IMG/VR virus record: IMGVR_UViG_3300027969_002424
Span: 124,001 to 188,000 of that record
Origin: a virus
Direction: 5' to 3' (one strand)
Length of the DNA: 64,000 nt
Under the pieces are notes generated by a model. That model was not told where the DNA came from, did no database searches, and saw only the letters and a list, made by a program, of their open reading frames with translations. The position numbers and the translations under genes were made by a program. Below, in pieces: positions 2,486-14,765 of this stretch. Within the stretch, counting starts at the first letter, position 1; the number at the start of each line of letters is the position of its first letter.

Positions 2486-2794
2486 TTATATCCCTAACAC
2501 TTGATTTATAGTAGTTCCCTTAGGCAAATATATGTTAGTACCTGCTACAAAATCAAAATAAGGATCTTTCAACATATTTGGATTTCTCATTGCAAATACC
2601 CACCACAATGTACTATTTGAATATAAATCATATGCTAATAAATCAGGTCGATATTCGTATACTGGTGTTATTTCCCAATATATATCCGACGGATCCATTG
2701 GTATAGGTCTATTAGACATAGTATCTAAATATTGACCGTTAACAATACTTGTATTGTAATACGGACTAGATGCCGGATATAAAGTGTTTATCAT
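2486..2794 (-). CDS. 53: Baseplate wedge protein, T4 gp53-like
   Basis: This small protein (102 aa from ATG at 2794) carries the typical gp53 core: YRPDLLAYDLYSNSTLWWVF, then AMRNPNMLKDPYFDF and GTNIYLPKG. In T4, gp53 is a baseplate wedge component needed to join wedges around the hub. At 102 aa it is about half the length of T4 gp53 and keeps mainly this conserved block. I chose ATG 2794 over an upstream in-frame TTG at 2800. The ATG overlaps the preceding stop as TAATG and has a perfect GGAGG at 2804-2808, nine bases upstream, while the TTG would sit almost on top of that site. Translation is probably coupled to the upstream baseplate gene. Confidence 0.85.
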   Translation of the reverse strand: MINTLYPASSPYYNTSIVNGQYLDTMSNRPIPMDPSDIYWEITPVYEYRPDLLAYDLYSNSTLWWVFAMRNPNMLKDPYFDFVAGTNIYLPKGTTINQVLGI

Positions 2795-4377
2795 TACCAA
2801 AAACCTCCATCGGATGGTAGTTGACTACCTCTTAGTAGTCTTCCTGTTGAATAATCTCTAAGACTAAAATTATTACTTACATCATTTCTCGTAACAATAG
2901 GAACTGCTGTTATCGATATTTGTATTTTTGTAGGGACATAAGTAGGTTCTTGTACTCTATATGCTCCCGAAAATTGAGGTGGCGCAACAGTTGCTCCTGA
3001 TTGTAATCCAGCATTTTGAATTCTACTATTGCTCCTTGATGATGTTGCACCTGATTTAGGTTGTTCTTGTGTAGAACCTGCTCTAATATAATCCACTTCT
3101 GTTGGCAATGAGTATGTAAAATTAGTTATTGCAAGTGGGTGATTATCAAATTGAAATGCACCTAATCCTGTAAGATAACATAATGGTGGAGGTGTACCTG
3201 GAACTGGACCCGGATCTTGACCGTAAAACATTTTTGTCACGGATCTAAAAAAGTGAATGACTGCTAATAAGTAATTAGCTTCAAAAACATCTTGTGCTGT
3301 AAAGTCACAACTTAGTGTAATTTGATCAACCGAACTACTATTATAAGTATAAAATTTATAATTTGTATGTGTTAATGTAGTAGGATCATACTGTGCTGCA
3401 TATGCAACTGAAATAGCAGGAGTATAGGGAAATATAACCCCGTTAGTTGTTGCCAATGGACTTAATATACCGGGCTCAGATGACTTATATAAATAATCCG
3501 CACCACTTGCTAAACTTAATCGTACACGCCAATCTTCTTTGCTGTTAAAGTTTGATATATCTTGATTTGTCGCTTCTTCTCGTGTATTTTGTTCTGCGGC
3601 AGATGTCCCTCTATAAGTATTATTATTTTCAGCAGCAGCAGCTTCAATTCTAGCATCTTCACGGGCTTCATTTTCACGGGTGATTCTTAATCTTGCTTGG
3701 TCATCAGTTTCTTCGGCTTGTTTTTGTGGTTGTATCACTGCGTTCGGTGCTGGTGCTGCTTCAATCGTAGTTATTGGCGCAGGTGCTGCGTTTTCTACTA
3801 CAGGGGCAGCAACCGGCGTCTCTGCCACAGCAGTAACTGCTGCCGGTACTGCATTTTCTACAACCGGCGTAACTGCGACTGCAGGTTCTGCTGGATTGCT
3901 AGTAGGAAGAACTTGAGCAGGGGTTGCAGCTTGTACTGGTTCGCCTGCTGAATTAGTTGAAGGTTGTTTTGCTGGATTTTCAATAGCACCTGCTTGCTTT
4001 AAATTGTTTATTCCATCATTGGTTTCAGCAACAACCGCGGCTTGTTTTGCTGCTGCTGCTTCAGCTTCACCTTTAGCAATTAATGCATCGGCTCGTTGAT
4101 TATCAAGTGCCACTGCTTGGGCTTTTGCTGCATCTCTTTCTGCTTGACTAAGTGTGGGGTCTGCTGCTTTCTCTTTAGCAGCATTTACTTGTTGTCGAGT
4201 TGGCGCTTGTGCTAACGCTTGAGTTGCTGATTCTACTGCGGCATTTTTTTCAGCTAGCTTACTTTCTTGTATTGTTGATAATTGTTGAGACCAAGCTAAA
4301 GCCGAATCTTTAGACGAAGGCGGCATAGTAGCAACATAACTGCTACTAGCTAAATTATTCGGGGTATAAAATGGCAT
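2794..4377 (-). CDS. Baseplate structural protein with alanine-rich coiled N-terminal half
   Basis: The 527-residue product has two parts. Residues ~1-270 are low-complexity, A/E/Q-rich and then P/V/A-rich, consistent with coiled coil and linker. Residues ~275-527 form a globular domain with conserved-looking blocks (WRVRLSLASGADYLY, PGILSPLATTNGVIFPYTP, FEANYLLAVIHFFRSVTKMF, YLTGLGAFQFDNHPLAITNF). I associate that domain with uncharacterised virion/baseplate proteins of marine T4-like phages; this is recall, not a search. It heads the minus-strand operon that continues with gp53. A late-promoter octamer lies 21 nt upstream and AAGGAT precedes the ATG. The role is probably baseplate assembly or structure; the exact T4 counterpart is unclear. 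Confidence 0.75.
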   Translation of the reverse strand: MPFYTPNNLASSSYVATMPPSSKDSALAWSQQLSTIQESKLAEKNAAVESATQALAQAPTRQQVNAAKEKAADPTLSQAERDAAKAQAVALDNQRADALIAKGEAEAAAAKQAAVVAETNDGINNLKQAGAIENPAKQPSTNSAGEPVQAATPAQVLPTSNPAEPAVAVTPVVENAVPAAVTAVAETPVAAPVVENAAPAPITTIEAAPAPNAVIQPQKQAEETDDQARLRITRENEAREDARIEAAAAENNNTYRGTSAAEQNTREEATNQDISNFNSKEDWRVRLSLASGADYLYKSSEPGILSPLATTNGVIFPYTPAISVAYAAQYDPTTLTHTNYKFYTYNSSSVDQITLSCDFTAQDVFEANYLLAVIHFFRSVTKMFYGQDPGPVPGTPPPLCYLTGLGAFQFDNHPLAITNFTYSLPTEVDYIRAGSTQEQPKSGATSSRSNSRIQNAGLQSGATVAPPQFSGAYRVQEPTYVPTKIQISITAVPIVTRNDVSNNFSLRDYSTGRLLRGSQLPSDGGFW

Positions 4378-9161: not shown

Positions 9162-9719
9162 ATGATTATGTCAAGTCCACAGAAAAACAAAGGTTCAGGT
9201 TTCGAAAGAGAAATCGCTAAATATCTATCCGATACTTACGGCGAAAGTTTTATTCGTGCCCCAGGGTCTGGAGCATATGTGGGCGGGAAGAATCAACATA
9301 GAACACAAATATTACATGAGGGGCAAGTTCGTTCATTTAAGGGCGATATTGTACCTGGACAATCATTCAGTAGAATGAATGTTGAGTGTAAGTTTTATGC
9401 AGATTTTCCGTTTCATTTGATACTTACTGGAGAGTGTAAAGTATTAGATGGTTGGCTAACGCAACTAATGGATGTTGCTGATCCAGACGATGTGAATATT
9501 CTTTTTCTGAAGTTTAATCGTAAAGGTCGCTATGTTTGTGTACAAAGCAAACTAACATGGGTTGCGGACAATTTCACTTATTACACCTCTCAAAAACACG
9601 GAGACTGGATGATTTTCGAATTTGATAGTTTCTTCTTACATAATATACCAATATTAAAATCATATTGTTCAACAGACACCAAGTCAAATCAAAGTTCCAT
9701 ATTAACTATTAATGTTTAA
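9162..9719 (+). CDS. PD-(D/E)XK-fold nuclease, possibly Holliday-junction-resolvase-like
   Basis: A 185-residue protein with the order of a PD-(D/E)XK nuclease: FEREI (E15/E17), APGSGAY, GDI (D62) and VECKFY (E75-x-K77). The family cleaves DNA in recombination, repair or host-DNA degradation; the exact role here is unknown. A second in-frame ATG lies two codons downstream (9168) and is an equally plausible start. It follows the HNH gene by 2 nt and sits near gp46/47, suggesting DNA processing. The tail (SYCSTDTKSNQSSILTINV) is polar and runs into the structured noncoding stretch, so the original C-terminus may have been altered there. Confidence 0.75.
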   Translation: MIMSSPQKNKGSGFEREIAKYLSDTYGESFIRAPGSGAYVGGKNQHRTQILHEGQVRSFKGDIVPGQSFSRMNVECKFYADFPFHLILTGECKVLDGWLTQLMDVADPDDVNILFLKFNRKGRYVCVQSKLTWVADNFTYYTSQKHGDWMIFEFDSFFLHNIPILKSYCSTDTKSNQSSILTINV

Positions 9720-10118
9720 AAATTTGTTGGCTCAGTTGTGAGTCCTCCTTGAGTTTGTACAGATTGTGCTGTGCTGACGGATCTGGAGTATGCTTATCAG
9801 TAATGATAAGGAAAACCGAGAAGGCTCTCGTCAAAGCGAACCTTCAATGAGTCTATATCCAACTCTATCTTGCGGATATAGAACATGCGTTGTCGAAGAA
9901 TCAATTGAAAGACATTGGTAGCTTCACTACAGTCCCAAAAACACTACAGGACAACCGGTTGCGTATAATGTCAGAAATAGGCAATTATACGGGGAACAGA
10001 TGGCAAAGGATGACGGGCATGGCAAGTTTCCATTGGTAGTGCAAATTTGCACTACCATGGCTCTCTAAGCGGCAATATATATCCGATACAATAAAGTTTT
10101 TGAGAATACAAAATTGTA
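9720..10118 (+). ncRNA. Gene-free, hairpin-rich region: candidate structured RNA
   Basis: About 400 nt with no convincing ORF. Hand-counted 60-nt blocks are about 42-47% GC, well above the flanking AT-rich genes. Stems read by eye (plus strand): CTCA/TGAG with GTTG loop (9731-9742); CAGAT/ATCTG (9760-9785); CTTATCA/TGATAAG capped by a GTAA tetraloop (9793-9810); CGAGA/TCTCG (9817-9830), competing with GAAGG/CCTTC (9820-9845); CTATATCC/GGATATAG (9853-9881); CGTATAAT/ATTATACG (9962-9991); and a long palindrome at 10034-10057. I could not match it to a group I intron core, RNase P, tmRNA or a known riboswitch. The strand is uncertain because DNA palindromes fold on both. Confidence 0.45.
10034..10057. 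repeat. Perfect 24-bp palindrome
   Basis: TGGTAGTGCAAA is followed directly by its reverse complement TTTGCACTACCA. Allowing one bulged T extends the pairing to CCAT/ATGG (10030-10060). It may be a hairpin tip, an operator or a processing site. Confidence 0.9.
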
Positions 10119-10149
10119 GAAAAATAAGACCGAACGAAGTGAGGTCTTA
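10119..10149 (-). terminator. Terminator of the gp26 operon (minus strand)
   Basis: On the minus strand TAAGACC/GGTCTTA (arms 10143-10149 and 10125-10131) encloses a loop centred on TTCG and is followed by five T residues. This is a good Rho-independent terminator about 60 nt beyond the last minus-strand stop codon. Confidence 0.75.
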
Positions 10150-10167
10150 GACAAACGAAGTTTGTCT
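10149..10167. terminator. Second hairpin of the convergent terminator pair
   Basis: AGACAAAC-GAA-GTTTGTCT, a perfect 8-bp stem with a 3-nt loop, followed on the plus strand by TTTAAAT. It abuts the minus-strand terminator and could end plus-strand transcripts coming from 9162-10118. Confidence 0.5.
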
Positions 10168-10208
10168 TTAAATGGATATCCCGATTTTGATAAATGAATA
10201 ATTACGGA

Positions 10209-10445
10209 TTAGAAGAATGGCATCTGTGTTTTCTTAGTAGTTTCTAAATTATCTTCTACTATCCTGCCAATGGCTTCTCTTTCATTCGGGGACATGTTAA
10301 GTATATCTTCATATGTTACCCCTCCCCGCATGTACCAAGAAAACTTTAACGAAGATTCTTTTATACTAAAGGCTTCTTTTTCCAGATCATCTAATAATTT
10401 TTGTATCTGCTCGTTGTTCAGAGAAAGAAGCCTTAATCGAAAAAA
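10209..10445 (-). CDS. Frameshift extension of gp26 (-1 frame), tail/baseplate assembly protein
   Basis: A 78-codon open frame without any ATG, GTG or TTG at its beginning. Its core reads KFSWYMRGGVTYEDILNM, followed by ETTKKTQMPFF and a stop at 10209-10211. It lies in the -1 frame relative to gp26 and opens just after a TGA at 10446-10448. The gp26 sequence crosses the classic slippery heptamer TTTTTTC (minus strand 10445-10439). A -1 slip there would join gp26 residues 1-272 to 76 further residues, giving a ~348-aa protein. In T4 gene 51 follows 26; this short segment could fill a related assembly role. An internal CTG start cannot be excluded. The gene is small but its coding character is clear. 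Confidence 0.75.
   Translation of the reverse strand, partial: FFRLRLLSLNNEQIQKLLDDLEKEAFSIKESSLKFSWYMRGGVTYEDILNMSPNEREAIGRIVEDNLETTKKTQMPFF
10369..10445 (-). promoter_or_regulatory. Programmed -1 ribosomal frameshift signal
   Basis: Minus-strand order: slippery heptamer T-TTT-TTC in the gp26 reading frame (10445-10439); 4-nt spacer GATT; arm AAGGCTTCTTT (10434-10424); 44-nt loop; perfectly complementary arm AAAGAAGCCTT (10379-10369). The gp26 stop codon TAA is one codon after the slip site. This is the standard geometry of a -1 frameshift element. Confidence 0.75.
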
Positions 10446-11254
10446 TCAGTTACATTTAATGTTAATGTTTGTGTGTATTCATGTGAGCAATTTACACATT
10501 GTATTTTTTGTGGTTTAATATTTGAATCGGATCTTAGATTTACCATAGTAGTACGAATCTTTTCAAATGTACTTCTATCACATGAAGATAAGAATTCAAT
10601 AATAAATTTAGGATCAGTTACTGTTTCTCCAGGAACACTTATAGATTCTATAGTCATAGATATCAAGTTCATATTAAGTGTAGATAGTTTTTTCATTATC
10701 TCGCCGGATTTAGTATTTCGTAAATTATCATCTTGCATTTCTTGCAAAACTGAAATTTCTCTTTGTGCTTCAAACTGTGCTAAGTTAAGTTTGTTACTAT
10801 CATTATATGTAATTGGTTTAAATTTGATTATTAAATCACCAATTGGAAAAGTATTACCATAATCAACATTTTTAATGCTTTGTAGTAAACCACCTAGATT
10901 AATAGCGTAGGATCCTTCATTTTCACATTCTGGACAATTTGATTTTATTTCTAATTCATTTCCATTAGTTGCTGAACGAATAGCAATCAATATAGCGTCT
11001 ATGTCTATATTTGGCATTTTCCATGGATCTTTGATTGCAGGAATACAGCTTTTTATAATCTCAACGACCGCGCTACCGTTAAATAATGCGTCTGGAGTTT
11101 TACTAGTAATTTCATCAATAGCAGTCATGGGGTAAACAGGAAGTTCACCACTTTCAGGCATGTCGATGGATCCCTCAGGGTAATATTGCCCTTTACTAGG
11201 TAGTGTAAGATACAATGCAGGTCTGCGGAAATACTGTTTTAAGGGGTTGTTCAT
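10433..11254 (-). CDS. 26: Baseplate hub assembly protein, T4 gp26-like (T4_baseplate family)
   Basis: The N-terminus PLKQYFRRPALYLTLPSKGQ and the block PVYPMTAIDEITSKTPDALF are diagnostic of the T4_baseplate family (T4 gp26, required to build the baseplate hub). Two Cys pairs, CPEC (~residue 104) and CVNC (~258), may bind a metal. The 273-aa zero-frame product ends DFFD at the slip site, so the gene probably makes a short and a frameshifted long form. It is transcribed divergently from the tape measure gene, from a late promoter 50 nt upstream, with GGAG before the ATG. Confidence 0.88.
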   Translation of the reverse strand: MNNPLKQYFRRPALYLTLPSKGQYYPEGSIDMPESGELPVYPMTAIDEITSKTPDALFNGSAVVEIIKSCIPAIKDPWKMPNIDIDAILIAIRSATNGNELEIKSNCPECENEGSYAINLGGLLQSIKNVDYGNTFPIGDLIIKFKPITYNDSNKLNLAQFEAQREISVLQEMQDDNLRNTKSGEIMKKLSTLNMNLISMTIESISVPGETVTDPKFIIEFLSSCDRSTFEKIRTTMVNLRSDSNIKPQKIQCVNCSHEYTQTLTLNVTDFFD

Positions 11255-11339: not shown

Positions 11340-14300
11340 ATGATGAACGAACAAGAATTATTTGAGAGATTTGACAGAATCGCTGAAGCCTTGGAAAGAA
11401 TGGCTACTGGTGTTGATCATTCCACTGAAACCATTGATTCTGAAACTACTGCTAGACGAGAATTAACTCAAGAAGAAAAAGATGCTCAAGACGAATTAAA
11501 CAAGAGAAGAAAGCTGGAAGAATCATATTGGAATCAACAGAGAAAAGAAAAACAAGAGATTGATGCTAGAGTCAGAAGGAATTTTGATGAGTTAGGCGCT
11601 AGTATAAAATATGTCCAAGAAGGCAATGCAATATTAGGAAAAATTGAAAGACAAAGAGTAACTGAAGATAACCTGCGTAAAAAAGCAGAAGAACAACTAA
11701 ACAAAGCACTAGAAGAAAACGATAGTACTTATAAAAAATTAAGCGAGTCTGGTAAAGAAAGATATAAAGCTGAGTTAAGAAACGAAGCAGCAATGACCAA
11801 AGCATATGCTGCAATTGGTAGAACTATTGACCAGTATGGAAAAGTAACAAAAGAAACTGATCATTTAACTTTAGCTCAACGTGCATATCTTGATATACTT
11901 AAGCAGATGGACGAAGTACAAAGACAAATGGCTGGAAATGTTTTAAAATTAGGAGCAGACTTAGGTAAATTAGCAATCAAAGGCACCTTTGATTTGTTTG
12001 TTGCAGGCATCAAAGGTGCATATGAAGGAACAATAGCATATCAAAATGCTATACTTGATGGTGCAGGGGCTAATGCCGCAGCCGCTGCACAAGTATCAGC
12101 CGAAATGAATGCACTAGCGGGTGCATTAGAATCTACTGGTTCTAGTATGGTTAGTTTAGGTGCAGAAGCTGCAAAGACTGCGGTACAGATGATTATATTA
12201 GGTGGACCAATAGGAGCATTAGTTGGCGTAATAATGTTACTAGTAGGTGCTGTAGTAGCATATGAAGGCTATGAGAAAGAAGCACAAGCTAAAAAAATGA
12301 AACGTGATGCTGAACTTCAAGCAAAGCAAGCAGCAATATATGATCAATTATATAAAGACTTTACTCAACTTTCATCAGCATCACTAACTAGTGCAGGTGG
12401 AATGACTACACTGTGGAAACAACTTGGACAAGTATCAATGTCTGTAAAAGACTTTGGTAAATTTAACAAAATTTTAGTAGAAGGCAGCGCAAGTTTAGCT
12501 ACATTTGCTAGTTCTGCGGTAGAAGGTGTACAAAAATTCACAGATGTAGCTGGATCAGTTATTAAATCTGGACTAGGAGATGTATTCCGTCAGATGGGTC
12601 TGACCAATGAGGAAATGGCAGCACATACATTAAAGTACATGGAACAACAGCGTTCACTTGGAACGCTACAAAATAAATCTGCTACTGATTTAAAAATAGG
12701 TACTGCTAACTATATCCGAGAACTAGATAGAGTTGCAGCATTGACCGGGCAATCTAGAAAAGATCAAGAAAAAGGTAGAGATGCGATAAGAGCAATGGCA
12801 CAAGTTAGTGCGGCTAAAAATATTGCAATGCAACGCGGGGATACTAAACAAGCTGGAAAATTAGGAGTTGTTGAAGAACTTGCTGGCGGTTTGAAAGCAA
12901 CTATGCCGGAATTTGCAGCAGCTTTGGCAAAAAGAGTATCAGGTGCTGCTCTTGATTCAGGTCAAGTAGCAATGATGAAAAACCAAGGGGAATTGTTAAG
13001 GTATATAGATAGTGGAGGAAAAGACCAAGTAAAAATGCAAATGCTGGTTGCTCAAGGGTTAGAAAAACAAGATAAAGGAAATGCATTTTTAGTTAGAACA
13101 GTAGGAGAAGTTGCTGGATATACGCAAGACAACTTTGCTGACAGACAAAAATTTGAACAGCAAATAGCAGGTTTAAGAAAAGCAGAAGCTGATGCGAAAA
13201 AAGCTGGAAAACCATTCGATGCTGCTGCGTTCTTAGACAAACAAAGAGAAGTTACGGATCCATTTACAAAGGCTCAAGCAGACGCTGCTCAAAAAGCTAA
13301 AGAAACACAAATAGCATTTGAAAAAAATGTAATGGGATTATCAACGGAATTTCCAAACATTATGAAAGAAATGATTAAAAAATTACCAGAATCTTTATCA
13401 GGTCCAATAATGAAATTCTTTGAATATGTTGAACAGTTTGGCAGATATGTTTTGAAGTTTATTGGTGATCCATCAGACACTCTTAAAGAAACATTAACTG
13501 GAAAAGACAAATCTCAAAGAGATGCCGAGAATTTGATTGATAAACAAAAAGAATTAAAGTCAGTTGAAGAAAGAATAAAGAGTCTCAAAGAGTCAACTGA
13601 AAATCCAGAAAAAGCTAAAAAGCAAGCAGATGAGAAATTTAAGTTAGCTGAACAAGAACTTAAATTAAAAGAACAAGCTGTGACGGATTTGAATATTCAA
13701 ATGAATAAAGAAAAAGATCCAAAGAAAAGAGAGTTACTAGCTATTCAAGGATCTGCAAAATATTTAGAAGAAAAAGAAGCAAAAGAAAAATACAGACTTG
13801 CAAAAAAATCAGTCGAAGATAACGAAACAGGATTTTTTAGTAAAAGTATAGAAACAAAGAAGAAAGAATTAGCAGACTTAGAAAAAAGAAAATTAGGGTT
13901 AGCTAATGAAACAACAAAATTAGAACAACAAGTTAAATCAAATCCGGCATCAACAACTGCTGCAGGGTTTGCTAAAACGTATGGTTCAAGCCCAGCTTAT
14001 AGTATGGCAATGGCTGGCGGTAAAGGCGGAGGTGGTAGTGCAGGAGCTATGGGTGCAGGTGATCCTTCAGGAGGTGGCAGCGGACCAAAACCAGAATTAA
14101 AAAGCGTCACTAGTAAAAGTGGTCCATCAGCACAAGTCAATAAAAATGTTGCAGACAATTTTCAAAATTTGATTAATCATCTTGACATGGCAGGTTATAA
14201 AATTAATGATATGGGCGGGTACAATAATCGAAAGATAGCTGGCACCGATGTTATGAGCGCACACGCCCAAGGTGCTGCGCTTGATATTAATGAAAAAACT

Positions 14301-14765
14301 AATCCAATGGGAAGTAAATTAATAACCGATATGCCTGAAAATATTGGAACAATAGCAGGTAATCTTGGATTAGGATGGGGTGGTAATTGGCAAAGTAAAA
14401 AAGATGCAATGCATTTTAGTGCTACTAGAAGTGAAGGTGGTACTCTTATGGCTAAAACCGGTGGAGTGTTTAATGGTCCTCCGGGAGGATATCCAGTAGA
14501 ACTACATGGTAGAGAAGCGGTAGTTCCACTTCCAAACCCAGGAGACAAAATATCAATTGACAAAGGGCAACAAGATGGTGGAGCAACAAAAAGTGCATTA
14601 TCTTCTGTAGTAGCAGACAACAATACTACATCTTCAAAAGACAACAGTTCTGCTATATTAATGGATTTATACTCAATGATGGAATCAAAATTTGATGACC
14701 TCATTGACAAAGTAAGCACAACCAATACTTACACTAACAAATTATTAAAGTATTCTCAGGTCTAA
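11340..14765 (+). CDS. Tail tape measure protein with peptidase M15 domain
   Basis: A 1141-residue tape measure sets tail length and leads DNA into the host. Residues 1-200 are charged and coiled-coil. A hydrophobic helical stretch lies at ~281-310 (MIILGGPIGALVGVIMLLVG). More coiled coil fills ~560-880, then a glycine-rich linker. A zinc peptidase M15 (D-Ala-D-Ala/endolysin-type) domain follows at ~930-1040, with S973-A-H975-x6-D982 and H1025 as ligands (SAHAQGAALDIN, DAMHFS). The tail end GGVFNGPPGGYPVELHGREA is typical of tape measure C-termini. A murein-cutting domain would help the tail cross the cell wall. It lies beside gp26, as T4 gene 29 lies in the hub cluster. ATG 11340 is followed at once by a second ATG; either may be used. 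Confidence 0.9.
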   Translation: MMNEQELFERFDRIAEALERMATGVDHSTETIDSETTARRELTQEEKDAQDELNKRRKLEESYWNQQRKEKQEIDARVRRNFDELGASIKYVQEGNAILGKIERQRVTEDNLRKKAEEQLNKALEENDSTYKKLSESGKERYKAELRNEAAMTKAYAAIGRTIDQYGKVTKETDHLTLAQRAYLDILKQMDEVQRQMAGNVLKLGADLGKLAIKGTFDLFVAGIKGAYEGTIAYQNAILDGAGANAAAAAQVSAEMNALAGALESTGSSMVSLGAEAAKTAVQMIILGGPIGALVGVIMLLVGAVVAYEGYEKEAQAKKMKRDAELQAKQAAIYDQLYKDFTQLSSASLTSAGGMTTLWKQLGQVSMSVKDFGKFNKILVEGSASLATFASSAVEGVQKFTDVAGSVIKSGLGDVFRQMGLTNEEMAAHTLKYMEQQRSLGTLQNKSATDLKIGTANYIRELDRVAALTGQSRKDQEKGRDAIRAMAQVSAAKNIAMQRGDTKQAGKLGVVEELAGGLKATMPEFAAALAKRVSGAALDSGQVAMMKNQGELLRYIDSGGKDQVKMQMLVAQGLEKQDKGNAFLVRTVGEVAGYTQDNFADRQKFEQQIAGLRKAEADAKKAGKPFDAAAFLDKQREVTDPFTKAQADAAQKAKETQIAFEKNVMGLSTEFPNIMKEMIKKLPESLSGPIMKFFEYVEQFGRYVLKFIGDPSDTLKETLTGKDKSQRDAENLIDKQKELKSVEERIKSLKESTENPEKAKKQADEKFKLAEQELKLKEQAVTDLNIQMNKEKDPKKRELLAIQGSAKYLEEKEAKEKYRLAKKSVEDNETGFFSKSIETKKKELADLEKRKLGLANETTKLEQQVKSNPASTTAAGFAKTYGSSPAYSMAMAGGKGGGGSAGAMGAGDPSGGGSGPKPELKSVTSKSGPSAQVNKNVADNFQNLINHLDMAGYKINDMGGYNNRKIAGTDVMSAHAQGAALDINEKTNPMGSKLITDMPENIGTIAGNLGLGWGGNWQSKKDAMHFSATRSEGGTLMAKTGGVFNGPPGGYPVELHGREAVVPLPNPGDKISIDKGQQDGGATKSALSSVVADNNTTSSKDNSSAILMDLYSMMESKFDDLIDKVSTTNTYTNKLLKYSQV

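Follow-up and report, generated by a model that had tools for sequence, protein, structure and literature searches.

The locus raises the question of whether a gene for a homologue of the T4 baseplate protein gp26 and the start-less reading frame behind it are one gene, read into a short and a long product by a -1 ribosomal frameshift. The window, which is the whole 64,000-nucleotide stretch of DNA that was analysed, is part of a 211,612-base virus record, and the ORF in question can be read directly on its minus strand. The encoded 273-aa protein matches PF12322 (T4_baseplate) with an E value of 6.4e-21 and 75.5 bits, above the curated Pfam cut-off of 24.5, and also phrog_150 (baseplate hub, 3.3e-21). 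Its AF2 model has a pLDDT of 88. Foldseek gave nothing at E 0.001 for this model against solved structures, and the best VIA match was an uncharacterised protein (Z 8.6 across 55 residues); no solved tail assembly chaperone was among the matches listed by the two fold searches. A search of the plasmid collection with gp26 gave no match.

The last codons of the gp26 gene are ACT GAT TTT TTC GAT TAA. They place the heptamer T TTT TTC at the 3' end of the short ORF, in the phase of a tandem -1 slip of the X XXY YYZ type, just as the first-pass annotation had described. As a check on chance, 31 ORFs of the window were used; they comprise 18,146 codons and 24 Phe-Phe pairs, and T TTT TTN occurs in frame three times among them, while T TTT TTC occurs solely at the end of gp26. 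The positions of this site and of the other features of the locus are listed in Table 1.

Table 1. Features of the gp26 locus, in coordinates of the window.
Feature	Position	Strand	Basis or remark
Candidate structured non-coding RNA, adjoining the 3' end of the frameshift gene	9722-10207, core 9805-9972	+ (tentative)	Covariation
Probable gp26 transcript terminator: two hairpins plus a T-run beyond the -1 stop	10120..10167	-	Sequence; helices 83-95% paired in 43 aligned sequences
-1 frame, 78 codons and stop (10211-10209); proposed to encode TAC-C, the C-terminal part of the long product, as a counterpart to the T4 gp51 tail	10209..10445	-	
3' arm of the downstream stem	10369..10379	-	11 bp perfect; restricted to the close lineage of the window (also L026 and, in shorter form, L027)
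5' arm of the downstream stem	10424..10434	-	GGCTTCT part pairs locally in most relatives
0-frame stop TAA, terminates the short product	10433..10435	-	Read directly; +10 nt from slip-site start in all 81 sequences
Slippery heptamer T TTT TTC (P-site TTT, A-site TTC)	10439..10445	-	Read directly; conservation
gp26 homologue, short product (proposed TAC-N), 273 aa	10433..11254	-	PF12322, phrog_150, AF2
Divergent neighbouring gene for a 1141-aa protein, probably a tape measure protein carrying an M15 peptidase domain	11340..14765	+	PF13539, 1.6e-11

The -1 frame starts exactly at the slip site, since the preceding triplet is a stop codon in this frame, and is translated as FFRLRLLSLNNEQ...SWYMRGGVTYEDIL...QMPFF. 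Its length of 78 codons and the missing start at its beginning are as first reported: the first 20 codons include no ATG, GTG or TTG, and the earliest ATG is codon 39. When the 234 nucleotides of the frame were mononucleotide-shuffled, they remained open in 29 of 20,000 cases. The AF2 model of the -1 domain is all-helical, with a pLDDT of 86. A Pfam search with the domain gave no direct match, and the only PHROG found was phrog_18291, at 0.099, a family that the -1 domains of the phages 121Q and RaK2 do match.

To follow the site through related viruses, viral contigs were scanned with the -1 peptide, which identified 136 relatives, of which the best 80 were kept. These loci were ranked by their likeness to the -1 domain, and the sample therefore favours loci with an intact start; the slip site itself was not covered by any of the six seed peptides. 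The pattern (G/A)AT TTT TTC GNN TRA is present in the window and in 80 of the 80 IMG/VR loci examined (the best 80 of 136), and all 81 sequences have the 0-frame stop 10 nt past the start of the slip site and 78 open codons in the -1 frame. Three further IMG/VR contigs (L018-L020) encode a gp26 identical to that of the window. The 81 sequences represent 54 distinct ones, which form 48 clusters at 95% nucleotide identity, window included; the set A6 consists of 37 of the 47 cluster representatives besides the window. In all 48 clusters, the run of six T is invariant, as are the C and the G that follow it. Phenylalanine is encoded upstream in the same 0-frames by TTT 273 times and by TTC 86 times, so that codon bias does not explain the fixed TTT TTC. 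This conservation argues strongly that the site exceeds what chance would produce.

Past the overlap, the -1 frame contains no stop codon in any of the 48 clusters, compared with averages of 6.9 and 7.8 stops in the other two frames. The codon-level comparison of frames that had been suggested in the first-pass annotation was based on 134 pairs of 70-95% identity and gave a pN/pS of 0.29 for the -1 frame, against 1.18 and 1.83 for the others. The -1 frame is thus under purifying selection, and the protein character ascribed to it earlier, with its QMPFF end, has held up.

An ORF that overlaps gp26 and is under selection might instead be a small gene in its own right, whose translation is coupled to that of gp26 by re-initiation at the gp26 stop or close to it, from a non-standard start in lineages like that of the window. 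An ATG overlaps the gp26 stop (ATGA) in five of the 48 clusters, where a coupled restart is accordingly possible, and some ATG, GTG or TTG is located between the upstream stop and codon 20 in 23 of them; deposited annotations, moreover, often give a separate ORF, such as gp51 in S-PM2 and gp249 in CBB. Against this, no such codon is found in the other 25 clusters, to which the window belongs. Relatives with a start and a ribosome-binding site of their own had been named in advance as evidence against a frameshift, and a start codon behind a Shine-Dalgarno-like string is present in five clusters and absent from 43. The sequence conservation also extends upstream as far as the FFR of the slip site, and re-initiation leaves the fixed codons of the heptamer unexplained. 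A separate, re-initiated gene is for these reasons improbable.

The window contains the stem that was described initially, with a 4-nt spacer, 11 perfect base pairs and a 44-nt loop. What did not hold is its weight as evidence. At least 11 matching bases were reached by 2,415 of 20,000 synonymous codon shuffles (12%), and the fold has an MFE z-score of -2.09, with 6 of 200 shuffles being equally stable. The 11-bp stem is real, but it is not significant beyond the amino-acid sequence and is limited to the close lineage of the window.

Most relatives appear to use another partner for the same 5' arm. Their GGCTTCT, located 6 nt past the heptamer, can pair with AGAAGCT in a local stem over 23 columns, in which 92% of the cells of the outer helix and 63% of those of the inner helix are paired. 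The covariation score of this stem is higher than in all 500 shuffles and in all slid registers, while the number of pairs with changes on both sides was reached in 31 of the 500 shuffles and the number of pair types in 161; changes on both sides are few in the outer helix. RNAalifold with default settings predicted no pairs in the 61-column alignment that includes the T-run. In contrast, positive results came from the count on the named structure and from a RIBOSUM run restricted to the sequence past the heptamer. The comparison therefore supports a local stem in the relatives, short of proving it. Synonymous codons have changed the local 3' arm in the window (CAA AAA TTA, where CAG AAG CTG is common), and the 5' arm matches the distal KEAF codons instead, which creates the 11-bp stem at the loss of the local one. 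A role of such a stem as a stimulator of the -1 slip is plausible and, for the version in the window, conjectural.

The stem is also of relevance for a second alternative, in which it is the RNA polymerase that slips, on the six consecutive T, and a mixed mRNA yields the same fusion. The T6 run, which is extended to T7 in pf16 and XacN1, is compatible with such slippage, and the protein outcome would be identical. However, a run of six bases is short for transcriptional slippage, and the phase T TTT TTC, with its closing C and G, is fixed in 48 of 48 clusters; this phase and the covarying stem 6 nt downstream in the relatives are as expected for slippage of the ribosome, and slippage of the polymerase is very unlikely. 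That the frames once were one gene, broken by a sequencing or assembly error or by decay, has no supporting point and is contradicted by the 80 IMG/VR loci (with 54 distinct -1 sequences, window included) and the named isolates that share the break, as well as by the purifying selection on the -1 frame, which leaves it a negligible probability.

The slip site is not restricted to the clade of the window. A tblastn search with the -1 domain matched 21 phage records, in 19 of which the match is directly at the end of a gp26 gene. The E values of these 19 are at most 3e-4 in eight cases, 0.2 in ten and 4 in one, and it is therefore the position at the gp26 end, rather than the score, that carries the weaker matches. 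The named phages were chosen by hand from the hit lists, and their counts below are not those of random samples. The distant jumbo-phage set consists of the gp26 ends of 17 loci (L001-L017) from phages of at least 287 kb; 15 of these have T TTT TTC (among them L004, L006, L016 and L017), one has T TTT TTT (XacN1, L012), and one, LR756508, has neither. Ten further T4-type loci contain a single gene 26. Seven of them (P-SSM7, S-PM2, S13, IC12, phiWae14, Mendera and D527) have T TTT TTC at this position and pf16 has T TTT TTT, while CBA120 and K446 have kept the -1 frame in the absence of the canonical heptamer. Relatives that lack both the heptamer and the stem had likewise been named as counter-evidence; the heptamer is absent from none of the 80 loci of the clade that were examined, and three among the distant loci are without T TTT TTN. 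An eleventh further T4-type locus, that of IME13, has neither the heptamer nor the -1 frame and contains a separate gene 51. The end of T4 gp26 reads TTC TTT GAG TTA CTA TAA, and gene 51 adjoins it.

The exceptions differ in kind. The uncultured LR756508 (L015, 2200-2510) is the sole one of the 17 without the T-run and a long -1 frame, and its +1 frame encodes a C-terminal peptide like those of the other loci (GGYSWYNVYHHMP), which might be reached by a +1 or -2 slip or from a different start. In CBA120 (L114, 3783-3968) and K446 (L115, 3558-3758), TTT TTC is replaced by ATT TTC and CTT TTC, respectively. These two phages possibly have a weaker slip site or use another mechanism.

If the -1 frame adds a domain to gp26, a counterpart might be sought in T4, where both gp26 (8.8e-64) and gp51 (3.9e-52) match PF12322; by these matches, gp51 is a paralogue of gp26. 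The match in gp51 stops at residue 201, and another 48 residues remain. A PHROGs scan of ten -1 domains showed that those of P-SSM7, S-PM2, S13 and D527 match phrog_634, annotated as "baseplate hub assembly catalyst", with values from 1.7e-29 to 3.5e-10, and that of CBA120 weakly, at 0.0027, while none of the five jumbo-type -1 domains matched this family. Residues 147-246 of T4 gp51 also match phrog_634. In profile comparisons, the cyanophage-type -1 domains align to residues 200-243 of gp51, starting from the end of the family domain (P 1.7e-4, probability 50%), and the cyanophage-type and window-type -1 domains align to each other (P 2.4e-5, probability 76%). The window-type profile compared directly with gp51 gave P 0.026 at another place, which is not convincing, and a mixed -1 profile found the right place but weakly (P 0.0094, probability 4%). 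T4 gp26 was not matched by the -1 domain profile in these comparisons. The C-terminal tail of gp51 thus appears to be linked to the -1 domain through the cyanophage-type domains or the weak mixed alignment.

The number of gene copies separates the genomes in a similar manner. PF12322 copies were searched for in 36 records (1 + 10 + 25), some of which may be fragments, as virus records can be, and three of which (G000, G001 and G002) contain the same gp26, which is thus counted three times. Two copies were found in T4 and IME13 and one in 33 records; no copy was found by the profile search in SCTP-2, although tblastn located its gp26. The 33 one-gene records have T TTT TTC in 28 cases, T TTT TTT in two and neither in three (CBA120, K446 and LR756508), while the two-gene genomes of T4 and IME13 have no heptamer.

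These patterns can be combined into an evolutionary scenario, for and against which we find the balance to be even. In the jumbo-phage clade, the covarying local partner of the GGCTTCT arm would have been swapped for one 44 nt away in the lineage of the window. The frameshift would represent the older state in the T4-type superfamily, including the jumbo phages, cyanophages, S13, pf16, Menderavirus and Vibrio phages, and genes 26 and 51 of T4 would have arisen by gene duplication, after which one copy lost the -1 domain and the other fused with it, so that two genes replaced the recoding.

The neighbouring gene provides further context. The divergent ORF upstream of gp26 encodes a protein with a long hydrophobic stretch and, near its C-terminal end, ELHGREAVVPLP, a type of motif that is typical of tape measure proteins. 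All 46 cluster representatives whose sequence reaches far enough upstream contain a divergent ORF of at least 630 aa there, and in 26 cases its product is matched to the protein of the window by BLAST. We consider with moderate confidence that its product is a tape measure protein. Annotations of the gene at this position in other jumbo phages mostly call its product a virion structural protein or hypothetical. The gene past the -1 domain matches tape measure PHROGs in S-PM2 (3.7e-5) and D527 (1.2e-6), and marginally in pf16 (0.0085), while the downstream gene in S13 and Mendera has no tape measure PHROG match. The tape-measure-like gene of the window is adjacent to gp26, yet divergent from it rather than downstream. 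A tape measure gene beside a chaperone gene would fit the lambda plan, apart from this direction.

On the other side of the gene, the 486 nt from the end of the -1 frame to the convergent gene at 9162-9719 contain no ORF of at least 50 aa. The region is conserved in DNA at the same place in relatives, with 57 distinct sequences including that of the window, and this set was reduced to 45, 43 and finally 42 sequences. All of them were taken from loci that had been collected by way of the frameshift gene, and their linkage to that gene is therefore no independent test. RNAalifold predicted -151 and -158 kcal on the two strands, compared with -35 and -37 for 20 column shuffles each. In the core alignment of 42 sequences, 98.7% of the cells are paired and 18 of 30 pairs show changes on both sides; the covariation is 0.405, compared with 0.150 (sd 0.008) when shuffled, for a structure derived from the same alignment. 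The pairs common to the predictions for both strands contain 106 A-C and 28 G-U in the letters of the gp26 strand, which favours the plus strand, while the counts are even over the union of the predictions (244 and 246), so that the strand of the RNA is tentative. A 24-nt perfect inverted repeat at 10034-10057 (TGGTAGTGCAAATTTGCACTACCA) is located inside the structured RNA and is unchanged in many relatives.

A search of Rfam with the region of the window and with eight relatives gave no match of note, and ARAGORN found none in the region. The core RNA model recovers the window and all six further loci of the clade, and it gave no hit at E 1 when applied to 29 loci from distant and T4-type phages; there is one copy in the window's own genome. 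The region thus has the appearance of a family of structured RNA, yet to be described, in this jumbo-phage clade. The phages BF, GAP32, CBB, XbC2 and 121Q (L004, L005, L007, L008 and L010) also have about 770-840 nt without annotated genes after the -1 frame (approximately 2540-3350), and this stretch was not matched by the core RNA model.

The single gp26 gene is very probably a tail-assembly-chaperone gene that provides a short and a long product by a -1 frameshift. This reading, which the first-pass annotation had put forward by comparison with G/GT, is supported by the unchanged heptamer, the purifying selection on the -1 frame, the link to the gp51 tail by way of the cyanophage-type domains, the split between one-gene and two-gene genomes and the tape-measure-like neighbour. 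Most ribosomes would end at the TAA and release the short form of 273 aa, in excess. A minority would slip by -1 on T TTT TTC, with both tRNA-Phe re-pairing on TTT TTT, and would resume with CGN, giving DFFR at the junction, followed by the helical domain, in a fusion product of about 348 aa. The short and long forms together may help to assemble the tape measure protein and the hub or tube, by analogy with lambda G/GT and T4 gp26/gp51. We infer that the slip occurs, as we do its rate, the stimulatory role of the stem and the function as a chaperone.

Several known systems resemble this arrangement. The chaperone frameshifts of lambda G/GT and P2 E/E+E', reportedly described by Levin in 1993, Christie in 2002 and Xu in 2004, resemble the arrangement proposed here in a -1 slip that ends a short ORF, a start-less second ORF and a tape measure gene nearby, which in the window is a probable one. 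Unlike these, the short form in the window has 273 aa and belongs to a T4-type family, and the likeness noted is one of arrangement. The cyanophages and their relatives (S-PM2, P-SSM7, S13 and D527) share the T TTT TTC at the gp26 end and have a -1 domain in phrog_634, but a gene for a large protein is located downstream, tape-measure-like in S-PM2 and D527, where the neighbour in the window is divergent. T4 gp26 and gp51 share PF12322, with a short form and a long form that have the N-terminal part in common, the latter adding a tail that appears to be related to the -1 frame; however, the two forms are encoded by two genes without a heptamer in T4 and IME13 and by one gene with a -1 slip site in the window.

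Tail assembly chaperones of T4-like phages, which are here taken to be T4 gp26 and gp51, were reportedly identified by Vladimirov, Gautam and Davidson in 2022 (Virology 566:9). The principle is thus not new for T4-like phages. A passage of the PRFect paper states that some T4-like phages have one short and one long chaperone gene and no frameshift (PMC10885494, citing Vladimirov et al. 2022), and a passage of the Adele paper cites the same study for poly-T slip signals in T4-like phages (PMC12846349). The chaperone gene of the Vandenendeviridae and Andersonviridae, as presented in that part of the Adele paper (PMC12846349), also combines a conserved poly-T slip signal with a -1 frame across divergent genomes, but these are other phage families, in which the signal is GTTTTT rather than T TTT TTC, and the likeness noted is one of signal and frame. 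According to a section of a T4 review, the published conclusions on hub assembly are contradictory, and gp51 is essential and of unknown function (PMC3004832). A literature search at the level of titles and abstracts, with the content of the Vladimirov 2022 article outside its scope, brought up no recognised report of a gp26 frameshift in these jumbo phages. The initial remark that the frameshift was not known to be described for gp26 in this clade may hold for the jumbo phages themselves, but not for the principle in T4-like phages. Possible novelties are the extension to jumbo-phage lineages, the covarying stem and the rewiring that this stem appears to have undergone.

These results would correct the annotation of a widespread family, in which gp26 is now listed as a part of the baseplate hub and the -1 pieces are hypothetical, called "gp51" or unannotated; gp26 and the -1 piece together look like one chaperone gene. 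The large alignment of -1 sites displays a downstream structure that changes while the heptamer stays fixed. Nature would seem to have found two solutions for the short/long pair, one recoded gene or two paralogues, so that exchanging one arrangement for the other would be a way to probe what T4 gp26 and gp51 do.
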